Below are positions 7,951 through 38,661 of a stretch of DNA of 64,000 nucleotides, piece after piece. The DNA comes from Sphingomonas sp. PAMC26645 (lineage in GTDB: Bacteria; Pseudomonadota; Alphaproteobacteria; Sphingomonadales; Sphingomonadaceae), in the NCBI RefSeq assembly GCF_004795835.1, contig NZ_CP039249.1, positions 1,422,501 to 1,486,500 of the forward strand. The letters run 5' to 3'. A program made the translations under genes and the position numbers. Under the pieces are notes generated by a model. The model was given only the letters and a program-made list of their open reading frames with translations, searched no databases and was not told where the DNA came from. Within the stretch, counting starts at the first letter, position 1; the number at the start of each line of letters is the position of its first letter.

Positions 7951-8078
7951 GATCCTCCCCCGCCAGGGGGAGGTGGCTGGCTCTTGCCAGACGGAGGGGG
8001 AGGAAAGGGCAGTAGTCGTTGCGTGTTCCTCCCCCTCCGTCACCTTCGGTGCCACCTCCCCCTTGCGGGGGAGGATTA
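7951..8078. repeat. inverted repeat pair of the CCTCCCCC family, empty form
   Basis: Left half begins GATCCTCCCCCGCCAGGGGG and ends CGGAGGGGGAGGAAA; right half begins TCCTCCCCCTCCGTCACC and ends GCGGGGGAGGATT. The halves are inverted copies of one another with about 20 bp between them (8006-8026). The same two halves frame the DUF559 gene at 13561-14048, and another empty pair is at 29343-29464. Confidence 0.88.
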
Positions 8079-13527: not shown

Positions 13528-13560
13528 TTTCTCCAACCCGGCCATTCAGCTTCCAGCTCA

Positions 13561-13611
13561 ATCCTCCCCCGCTAGGGGGAGGTGGCGCCGGAGGCGTCGG
13601 AGGGGGAGGGG
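13561..13611. repeat. left half of CCTCCCCC repeat flanking the DUF559 gene
   Basis: ATCCTCCCCCGCTAGGGGGA followed by GGTGGCGCC and ending GTCGGAGGGGGAGGG. It matches the left half of the pair at 7951-8078. The DUF559 stop codon lies 5 bp beyond its end. Confidence 0.88.
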
Positions 13612-13615
13612 GCGA

Positions 13616-13990
13616 TTAGCTCTCGAAGATGGTTCGGCGTTGGAGTGCGATGGACGTGACCTGGCGAACGACGTCGTCGAGGTTTGCCAGCATTTCGCGG
13701 GCTGGGTAGCGGAGGACTTGGATGTTCTGGGCGACTAGCCAGGCGTCGCGCGTTGCGTCTCGTTCGGGGCGGTTGCCGTGGTTGTGGGCTTCGCCGTCGA
13801 CTTCGACTGCGAGTCGGGCTGGGGCGCAGTAGAAGTCCAGGACGTACGGGCCTGCTGCATGTTGTCTTCGGAACCGTAGGCCTTCTTCGTTACCTCGGAG
13901 CGCCAGCCAGAGGGCGATCTCCGGTGGGGTCATCTGTTTTCGCAAGCGCTTGGCGTTGCTGTGGTCGTGTAGGGATCCTTCGAGCCGCAT
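13616..13990 (-). CDS. DUF559-domain (Vsr-like fold) protein framed by inverted repeats
   Basis: The 124-residue protein has DUF559 features: LRKQMTPPEIALWLALR, LRFRRQHAAGPYVLDFYC, then LAVEVDGEAHN and a C-terminal VLRYPAREML. The order Asp (LDFYC) - Glu-x-Asp (VEVDG) fits the catalytic layout of the PD-(D/E)XK/Vsr-related nuclease fold. Function of the family is not established. The gene exactly fills the space between two inverted repeat halves (13561-13611 and 13995-14048). The GGAGG ribosome site, 6 bp before its ATG, is part of the right-hand repeat. It interrupts the tuf-rpsJ spacer and is antisense to the ribosomal genes. Confidence 0.88.
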   Translation of the reverse strand: MRLEGSLHDHSNAKRLRKQMTPPEIALWLALRGNEEGLRFRRQHAAGPYVLDFYCAPARLAVEVDGEAHNHGNRPERDATRDAWLVAQNIQVLRYPAREMLANLDDVVRQVTSIALQRRTIFES

Positions 13991-13994
13991 CGCT

Positions 13995-14048
13995 TTCCTC
14001 CCCCTCCGTCACGCTTCGCGTGCCACCTCCCCCTGGCGGGGGAGGATT
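13995..14048. repeat. right half of CCTCCCCC repeat flanking the DUF559 gene
   Basis: TTCCTCCCCCTCCGTCACGC to CTGGCGGGGGAGGATT, inverted relative to 13561-13611. Read on the minus strand it provides GGGGGAGGAAAGCG directly ahead of the DUF559 ATG. Confidence 0.88.
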
Positions 14049-21095: not shown

Positions 21096-21160
21096 CTACC
21101 AACCGCCGCCCCTGACCTCGTGTCACGGGCGGCGCTTCAGGAAAGAAAGAACTTAAGTCG

Positions 21161-26865: not shown

Positions 26866-26922
26866 GTGTGTTCCGCCGCGGAAGCGGGGCCCCAGTTATG
26901 GGCCGCGCCCTCGCCCCCTCAT

Positions 26923-27030
26923 CCGTCATCCCGGCGAACGCCGGGACCCACGGATACGGTGGACCAAGCGAGAGCGTGCTACCACCCCCCACTCCGCAAC
27001 CATGGGTCCAGGCGTTCGCCGGGATGACGG
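26923..27030. repeat. inverted repeat downstream of adk
   Basis: CCGTCATCCCGGCGAACGCC (26923) and GGCGTTCGCCGGGATGACGG (27011-27030) are inverted copies about 60 bp apart. Another sphingomonad-type repeat pair, unrelated in sequence to the CCTCCCCC family. Confidence 0.85.
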
Positions 27031-27268
27031 GGTAGGGGTGGGGTAGATTTCTCGGACGGTTTCGTATCGAGCCCCACAACAACCATTAACATGACGAAAT
27101 TGTCACCCCTCGGTCATCGCCCTGACCCCCGCCCGATCCTAGAACCAACACGTGGCCAGCAACGGCCGCATGAGTTTCCAGAGATCGGTGCCCGTCACTC
27201 CCGGGGGTACCGTGGGGGCCGGCGGGAAGGGTTCTTTCCGCCGGCCTTTCCGTTTATAAGGGCAGGAG

Positions 27269-28000: not shown

Positions 28001-29343
28001 TTCGCCTTTCGGTAACAGCCCGAATCGCGCTGCTCTCGATCGCGCTGGCGCTGATCTCCAACCTCGCGCTGGTCGGTTTCGTCTGGAAGACCACCAGCGC
28101 GGACGCGATCGACGCGATCCGGCGCGAGACCACCGAACAATCCGAAGCCCTGCGCGCGGTCTGGCGTAACGGTGGCCTCCCCGCGATCCGTCAGGCGATC
28201 GACAGCGCAGTCGTCCCCGGCGACGTCTCGCTCGTCCTCGCGGTAGTCGACCCGAAGGGCAGGGCAGTCGTCGGCATCGCGCCCGAGCGCCTCGCAGTCC
28301 CGCTCCGCATCACGCAGTTTCGCATCGCGCGACTCGGAGCAGACGAACTTTGGTCCGCACGCGAGACGGGGTACGCGCTCCATCCGCTAGGCAGCTACTG
28401 GCTCCTGACCGGTCGAAATCTCGACCTGATCGCCGCGGAGGAGCGCGCGATCGAACGTGCGCTCGCGGTCGCCGTTTTCCTGTCGCTGGCGCTCGGTGTG
28501 GTCGGCGGGCTGGTCCTCACGCGATACGTTAGCCGCCGTCTCGACGGCATCGCCAAGGCGATCGAGGCGGCTGGCGAAGGCGACCTGTCGCGCCGCGTCG
28601 ACATGATCGCGGGCGGAGGCGACGCGTTCGACCGCCTCGCCGCACGGCTCAACGTCATGCTGGGCAAGCTCGAAGGCGTGATGGCCGAACTGCGGATCGT
28701 TACCGACAGCCTCGCACACGACCTCCGCTCCCCGCTCGCACGCCTGCGCACCAAGACCGAGCAGGCGGTCCTGATCGCCGACCCCGACGCTCGGGAAGCG
28801 GCGCTGGGTGGCCTGCTGGTCGAGACCGACCTCGTCATGCGAATGCTGACGATGGTGATCGAGATCAGCCGTTCGGGCTCGGTATCGCGCGATCGCTTCA
28901 TCGAGGTCTCGCCCGCGAACCTGCTCGAAGAGATCGGCGAACTCTACGCGCCCGTCGCAGAGGATGCCGGCCTCGTCTTCACGATCGCGATCGACGACCG
29001 CCCACCGCCGATGAAGCTGCACCGCGAACTCATCAGCCAAGCGATCACCAACCTGATCGACAACGCGCTACGCCACGGCGCTGGCGGTGGCGAAGTCACA
29101 CTGCGGATCGTCCACCGCACCGACGGCGTCGCGATTCAGGTCGAGGACCGCGGCCCCGGTATCGCCGCCTCCGACCGTGCCCAGGCGTTGAAGCGCTTCG
29201 GCCGCCTCGACAGCGCGCGGTCCACCCCCGGTGCCGGCCTCGGCATGGCGCTGATCGAAGCGGTAGCGCGGCTCCACGATGGCCACTTCGAACTCGCCGA
29301 TAACGCGCCGGGCTTGGTCGCACGCATAGTCCTCCCAGTCTGA
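27997..29343 (+). CDS. sensor histidine kinase
   Basis: The 448-residue protein starts at a GTG overlapping the regulator. It has two membrane helices (about 8-30 and 155-175), a short periplasmic sensor region, a HAMP linker (about 176-230), a HisKA domain with phospho-acceptor His241 in LAHDLRSPLARL, and a HATPase domain with N box Asn355 (LIDNALRHG), G1 EDRGPGIA and G2 GAGLGMAL. It is an inner-membrane partner of the preceding OmpR-type regulator. The stimulus is unknown. Confidence 0.93.
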   Translation: MIRLSVTARIALLSIALALISNLALVGFVWKTTSADAIDAIRRETTEQSEALRAVWRNGGLPAIRQAIDSAVVPGDVSLVLAVVDPKGRAVVGIAPERLAVPLRITQFRIARLGADELWSARETGYALHPLGSYWLLTGRNLDLIAAEERAIERALAVAVFLSLALGVVGGLVLTRYVSRRLDGIAKAIEAAGEGDLSRRVDMIAGGGDAFDRLAARLNVMLGKLEGVMAELRIVTDSLAHDLRSPLARLRTKTEQAVLIADPDAREAALGGLLVETDLVMRMLTMVIEISRSGSVSRDRFIEVSPANLLEEIGELYAPVAEDAGLVFTIAIDDRPPPMKLHRELISQAITNLIDNALRHGAGGGEVTLRIVHRTDGVAIQVEDRGPGIAASDRAQALKRFGRLDSARSTPGAGLGMALIEAVARLHDGHFELADNAPGLVARIVLPV

Positions 29344-29464
29344 TCCTCCCCCGCAAGGGGGAGGTGGCTGGCGCTTGCCAGACGGAGGGGAGGAGAGGGT
29401 AACCCCGGTCGGGTGTCCTCCCCCTCCGTCGCTACGCGCCACCTCCCCCTGGCGGGGGAGGATT
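29343..29464. repeat. inverted repeat pair of the CCTCCCCC family, empty form (second)
   Basis: Begins at the sensor-kinase stop codon: ATCCTCCCCCGCAAGGGGGA to CGGAGGGGAGGAGAGGG, about 16-20 bp, then TCCTCCCCCTCCGTCGC to GGCGGGGGAGGATT. It has the same two halves as the pair around the DUF559 gene. Confidence 0.88.
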
Positions 29465-38537: not shown

Positions 38538-38539
38538 AG

Positions 38540-38651
38540 CTCCCCTCCCGCTTGCGGGAGGGGTTGGGGGAGGGGCTGGCATAGCCGCACACCCAAGGTC
38601 TGAGGAGCGAACAGGCCCTCCCCTGACCCCTCCCGCAAGCGGGAGGGGAGC
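38540..38651. repeat. inverted repeat between trpB and trpA
   Basis: CTCCCCTCCCGCTTGCGGGA and TCCCGCAAGCGGGAGGGGAG are inverted copies with AGGGGTTGGGGGAGGGG-type extensions and about 35 bp between. It fills the trpB-trpA spacer and ends 3 bp from the trpA start. Confidence 0.9.
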
Positions 38652-38661
38652 AGAAGCGAAG

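Follow-up and report, generated by a model that had tools for sequence, protein, structure and literature searches.

DUF559 nuclease genes as candidate partners of palindromic repeat families in Alphaproteobacteria

What brings a small nuclease-like gene to lie exactly between the two inverted halves of a palindromic repeat, and is such a gene a passenger of the repeat or its partner enzyme? The question is raised by a gene in the window, by which we mean the whole 64,000-nt stretch of DNA analysed here. The window belongs to a 4.28-Mb genome (G000) assembled as one contig, and the named sequences closest to the gene come from Sphingomonas.

A nuclease gene between two repeat halves

The gene (13616..13990, minus strand, stop codon TAA, read directly) encodes a 124-residue protein that matches DUF559 (Pfam PF04480, E 1.4e-26) and is the candidate partner of the surrounding repeat, here called type A. 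The left half of the repeat (13560..13609, plus strand) lies 6 bp from the stop codon and the right half (13996..14048, minus strand) 5 bp from the ATG. Around the gene, 40-nt arms are 88% complementary over a span of 413 nt. A GGAGG inside the right half (13997..14001, minus strand) resembles a ribosome-binding site and precedes the ATG by 6 nt. Two gene-free type-A inverted doublets, with about 20 bp between their halves, occur elsewhere in the window, and the gene stands where the short spacer of such a doublet would be. An earlier note on this DNA had described the gene between inverted halves, the GGAGG contributed by the right half and the two further copies, and direct reading bore out all three.

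Both gene-free doublets are predicted to fold into long hairpins. The REPIN-like doublet at 7952..8077 has a predicted DNA fold of -60.3 kcal/mol (z -10.8), and the same place is occupied in genomes G018, G024 and G034; the doublet at 29343..29464 (fold z -8.7) is kept in G034 and G024, and G018 has one short hairpin there. The sequence TCCTCCCCC has 10 copies in the window against 0.41 expected (0 of 100 shuffles reached 10), and genome-wide the type-A half-pattern TCCTCCCCCGCNAGGGGGAGGTGGC is found at 105 sites, with 0 occurrences of the reversed control. Pairing of half-copies is also common in G016, which has 73 copies in total: by eye, 38 of 65 half-copies among the matches listed form plus/minus pairs about 100 bp apart. 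A third gene-free doublet in the window, of type F (38539..38652; cluster c14), has its own DUF559 gene at G000:1678532. The repeats are of CCTCCC or CCTCTCC type, and by reading, the halves carry no GTAG tag at their ends. Assignment of the repeat to an Rfam RNA family was rejected, as the search returned microRNA matches only, far below the cut-offs. The window also contains a doublet at 26915-27039 with CCGTCATCCCGGCGAACGCCGGGACCCA, which is a CGTC-type REP pair whose sequence is unrelated to the DUF559-linked families.

The genome has seven DUF559 matches, six of them stand-alone genes. Five of these six lie between inverted repeats belonging to five different palindromic families (c12, c14, c5, c16 and c1, the last being type A), so that the arrangement is broader than the earlier note supposed, with several families in one genome. 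The sixth stand-alone gene (L003) has a complete repeat on its upstream side only; the second half may have been lost, or the gene may have become fixed in place. The seventh match (L007, G000:2160677-2160925) is a weak one to a domain within a long open frame of 1517 residues, presumably a helicase fusion, with no flanking repeats in the printed stretch.

PF04480 is described solely as a domain of unknown function. Pfam and NCBIfam scans of the window protein found no transposase domain. Ten residues, including E24, D52, E63, D65 and H69, are invariant across 19 diverse members of the family. A structure model (mean pLDDT 87) matched the Neisseria structure 3hrl best (E 6e-6), and also matched the I-Bth0305I homing-endonuclease domain (3r3p; E 5e-5, TM 0.60/0.75) and Vsr (E 1.2e-2). 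As modelled, the fold is Vsr/EDxHD-homing-like, that of a PD-(D/E)XK-type nuclease. The median dN/dS was 0.14 and all pairs were below 1 (151 pairs among 19 close type-A genes, commonest length only), which indicates that the gene is under purifying selection. In Caulobacter, according to the accessible part of one study, loss of the methyltransferase ScmA leads to a DNA-damage response that depends on the DUF559 protein VsrA, and the authors interpret this protein as a Vsr-like repair enzyme; the word 'repeat' there denotes a LexA site (PMC12907096). A member of the DUF559 family therefore appears, from that part of the study, to be active on DNA in the cell.

Inverted flanks, repeat families and copy number across genomes

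To score flanks, the 260 bp preceding a gene and the reverse complement of the 260 bp following it were aligned locally, with a cut-off of 30. The order-level sample comprised 61 genomes (our own, 36 of the same genus and 24 of the order), at least 45 of them with DUF559, and gave at least 129 near-full-length stand-alone DUF559 genes from 41 genomes; one lacking a flank was dropped, leaving 128 to be scored. The earlier note had proposed a comparison with random genes, and the excess was very large: 118 of the 128 genes reached the cut-off, compared with 37 of 4798 intervals drawn at random from the same stretches, and at a score of at least 35 the counts were 115 of 128 and 5 of 4798. In a first pass, 90/96 genes and 12/2115 random intervals reached the cut-off, and pairs of flanks taken from different genes reached it in 474/1955 cases. 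Comparison of the true with the cross-paired flanks indicates that the two flanks of one gene match each other specifically.

The same held in wider sets. Class-wide, 97 of 289 genomes had a PF04480 match, and 45 of 70 genes (all 70 scored) reached 30 compared with 17 of 1736 intervals. Among 80 named relatives of the window protein that were kept, including some from Sphingomonas, Caulobacter, Asticcacaulis, Phenylobacterium and Novosphingobium, 67 of the 77 scored did so, the remaining 3 loci being too short. Given the excess in the first-pass, order-level, class-wide and named-relative sets, we reject coincidence. The genes without clear inverted flanks (10/128 order-level, 25/70 class-wide and 10/77 named relatives) count against the reading favoured below, and the three sets together indicate that the link is class-wide and not universal. 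Five of ten low scorers (L003, L035, L054, L055 and one of L048) share a clade with c9 genes. In L003, L035 and L048 (minus-strand gene) we observed a c9-clade DUF559 lineage with weak inverted-flank scores. DUF559 genes on other records gave 208 (Sinorhizobium meliloti) and 50 (Azospirillum), and a gonococcal gene scored 31, at long distance. The E. coli DUF559 gene examined scored 18 and has a similar half-repeat on a single side, which counts against the link.

When genes were called by a simple ORF rule, 26/64 DUF559 genes reached 30, a low proportion that counts against the association and is probably due to called ORFs overrunning the palindromes; the corresponding figure for other called genes was 9/763. 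That other genes are seldom so flanked speaks against the reading in which the nuclease works elsewhere, for example in Vsr-like mismatch repair, and the repeats are mere terminators or expression control of the gene. The supply of a ribosome-binding site by the repeat suits such a role, as does the tie of VsrA to DNA damage upon ScmA loss in the available part of the Caulobacter study (PMC12907096). We nevertheless regard it as highly unlikely, since it predicts neither one repeat family per nuclease clade nor a copy number that tracks the cognate nuclease, both of which are taken up below.

Protein sequences played no part in the clustering of the half-repeats. The largest clusters were c12 (16 genes in 15 genomes), c5 (15 in 14), c14 (13 in 13), c16 (13 in 11), c9 (13 in 13), c15 (13 in 13) and c1, the type A of the window (12 in 12), with nine smaller clusters besides; there is roughly one DUF559 gene per repeat family per genome. 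The gene-to-repeat offset is identical in 14 of the 15 c5 genes and more variable in other families. We placed the families of at least 3 genes, covering 111 of the 118 repeat-bearing genes, on a protein tree (101 columns, many weak forks). The 11 families required 16 changes, against a least possible number of 10 and a shuffled mean of 80, and 0 of 200 shuffles were as low. Four families (c16, c15, c11 and c8) each make up one side of a single branch; the others required 7 changes (c12), 4 (c5 and c3), 3 (c9) or 2 (c14, c1 and c4). The splitting of c12, c5 and c3 on the nuclease tree counts against the reading favoured below.

Copy number was assessed with one exact pattern per family for five families (A, B, D, E and F) in the 61 genomes, so that divergent copies are missed. 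All five patterns gave 0 copies in the 24 other-genus genomes, and the reversed control gave 0. Across the 37 same-genus genomes, type A had 490 copies in the 12 genomes with the cognate gene compared with 19 in the 25 without (p 4.7e-6; this and the following p values are from one-sided Mann-Whitney tests that ignore kinship). The effect of the cognate gene was likewise seen for E (p 1.1e-5), D (2.6e-5), F (3.9e-4) and B (7.8e-4). In all five rows the smallest p belonged to the family's own nuclease, the best non-cognate pairing reaching 2.3e-3. Copy number tracked the cognate gene in all five families, kinship being ignored. Same-genus genome G006, with no DUF559 among the matches listed, has none of the five repeat patterns. 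Also counting against the favoured reading, some genomes contain many copies and no detected cognate gene (90 copies of E in G018, 45 of B in G025, 28 of F in G031 and 23 of D in G004), and some cluster members have the gene and few or no exact copies (0 for the A pattern in G029 and G032 and for the B pattern in G035).

The subfamily-specific pairing suggests that the enzyme acts on the repeats and may spread them. Because the pairing is family-specific both on the protein tree and in copy number, we favour a functional partner over a passenger; of the two options left open by the earlier note, the partner enzyme gains support and the passenger is disfavoured.

Loci compared between genomes and the favoured explanation

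At the tuf-rpsJ place, G000, G024 and G034 each carry the type-A gene. G018 has a broken version of it there, between repeats that have likewise decayed, and its genome contains 13 type-A copies only. A close gene-less relative of this place was not found among the 13 of the other 26 loci that were parsed, whose gaps measure 153-285 bp, with one of 541 bp. In G000 (read) and G034 (from coordinates), the type-E gene adjoins a gene that we take to be a thiolase; at that place G018 and G024 have one half-repeat and no gene, with the gene-less junction at ACCCACCCCC. The arrangement fits insertion of the gene beside a half-repeat as well as its removal by recombination between direct halves. The type-E gene of G024 lies elsewhere, at a place where G000 and G018 have two other-family doublets and G034 has one with a different right flank. 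At the type-B gene place of G000, G024 has small genes instead, presumably hicA/hicB, and no repeat (L173, about 960-1500).

Gene-free slots also differ in content. In the syntenic region, the slot at about 21098-21141 holds an unrelated short hairpin in G000; G018 has a type-F doublet at this position, and G034 and G024 have a doublet of another family. At a further slot, G024 has a type-A doublet where G000 has a CGTC-type hairpin. By eye, no target duplication was seen in the few slots compared. Judged from this small number of slots, one family seems to replace another as intergenic slots are re-used. By their neighbours, the 40 nearest named loci that were scored can be sorted into 17 contexts; one place accounts for 16 of these loci.

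These observations bear on the possibility that the repeats are the ends of a simple DUF559-encoding transposon, with the gene-free doublets as MITE-like internal-deletion derivatives. A gene between inverted ends, the 17 neighbour contexts and the halves shared by gene-free doublets are what such an element would leave. Yet the protein has no transposase domain in the two databases scanned and the few slots compared show no target-site duplication, on which grounds we give this reading very low odds; the gene is also not multiplied within genomes.

The main rival, which we consider unlikely, is that the gene is a free-standing homing-type endonuclease gene, parasitic on existing repeats: it would cut the loop of a doublet and be copied in, the repeats spreading by other means. 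The closeness of the fold to the I-Bth0305I domain, the position of the gene in the doublet loop, the orthologous gene-less place with a half-repeat and the occurrence of repeats without the gene all agree with such a parasite. It is harder to reconcile with a count of roughly one gene for each family in a genome, despite tens to more than 100 targets. Most genomes that lack the gene also have few or no repeats, an outcome that parasitism would not require.

We favour the reading, at a probability of about two in three, that the DUF559 gene encodes a dedicated nuclease of one repeat family, an enzyme that cuts the hairpins of that family and, through repair, spreads the family or maintains it; cutting and movement are the parts that we infer. 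Support comes from the excess of inverted flanks, the fit of the families to the nuclease tree, the link of copy number to the cognate gene, the constant offset in c5, the decayed repeats beside the broken type-A gene, the lack of the five patterns in G006, the low dN/dS, the fold and the succession of families in slots. Gene and repeat would form one system of REPtron-like build, in which the repeats are REPIN-like inverted doublets able to fold into long hairpins or cruciforms. The target that the nuclease recognizes and cuts would be the cognate hairpin, formed on single-stranded or cruciform DNA, or alternatively the palindromic intergenic slots that house such elements; another copy of the repeat would then serve as the template for mending the break. 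Repair of this kind would place repeat copies in slots by replacing what is there, leave no target duplication and keep the members of a family alike.

Comparison with known systems

CGTC-REPs, reported by Di Nocera and co-workers in 2013, are alphaproteobacterial palindromes too, mostly inverted dimers, and also occur in the window; in sequence they differ from the DUF559-linked repeats. As far as the accessible text of that paper goes, they seem to be without a dedicated transposase (PMC3733652). In our gene-called control, one small nuclease gene (L070, 10827-11160, minus strand) proved to lie between CGTC-REPs. We take this nuclease to be a GIY-YIG enzyme, and several plasmid relatives of it are named GIY-YIG in their records. 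From 33 records with a relative, 15 were picked by hand against near-duplicates and scored with flanks of 300 or 350 bp: 13 of the 15 had inverted flanks of at least 30 (exceptions L345 and L351), and 11 (L070 and L346-L358 are among the set) had a CGTC-REP-like motif on both sides. Flanks cross-paired between genes reached 30 in 43 of 132 cases, a high value that reflects the resemblance of CGTC-REPs to each other. On these sequence comparisons, the GIY-YIG nuclease may be a partner of CGTC-REPs. In the class sample, three DUF559 genes (L232, L236 and L240, in G111 and G292) are flanked by CCTTCTCCCC..GGATGAGGGG repeats, which to us resemble rhizobial RIME1. Among the recombination hotspots named in the accessible part of a Legionella paper are segments with transposase/DUF559, and GIY-YIG genes. 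Pairing of DUF559 or GIY-YIG genes with palindromic repeats was not found in the open-access literature searched, as far as its texts were accessible, most subscription papers lying outside that search.

To our knowledge, the spread of palindromic repeats in alphaproteobacteria has so far had no explanation. We tentatively propose, at somewhat less than an even chance, that nuclease-driven repeat populations have arisen convergently, DUF559 with CCTCCC-type REPINs and GIY-YIG with CGTC-REPs, beside RAYT with GTAG repeats: a homing-type nuclease without a transposase would spread and maintain repeats by cutting palindromic slots, repair copying a repeat in. If true, this would explain how orphan alphaproteobacterial REP families move. 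Pairing a repeat family with a nuclease clade gives PF04480 a testable function, would show that repeat-enzyme partnerships arise with unrelated enzymes, and offers many natural nuclease/hairpin pairs for studies of DNA-hairpin recognition.

The EDxHD/Vsr-like nucleases (I-Bth0305I, E. coli Vsr and Caulobacter VsrA) share with the window protein the fold and the positions of the conserved acidic residues and the histidine; in the accessible parts of the literature examined, they have no link to repeat families. In build, the closest likeness is to REPIN-RAYT systems, in which, as far as the accessible parts of the literature go, there are likewise short extragenic palindromes, inverted doublets and a single-copy partner that flanking repeats accompany and that is repeat-specific. 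RAYTs are described there as single-copy and vertically inherited, with repeat-specific REPtrons in species that have several families (PMC8049555, PMC3116915, PMC3733652). Their repeats carry a GTAG tag, whereas those described here are of CCTCCC/CCTCTCC type without it, and the chromosomal position of the DUF559 gene, unlike that of a RAYT, can vary. The partner in REPIN-RAYT systems is an HUH/Y1 tyrosine transposase; here it is a PF04480 nuclease. Since the defining enzyme differs, we reject membership of the RAYT family and class the DUF559 genes and their repeats apart from RAYT systems, though the two are built alike.
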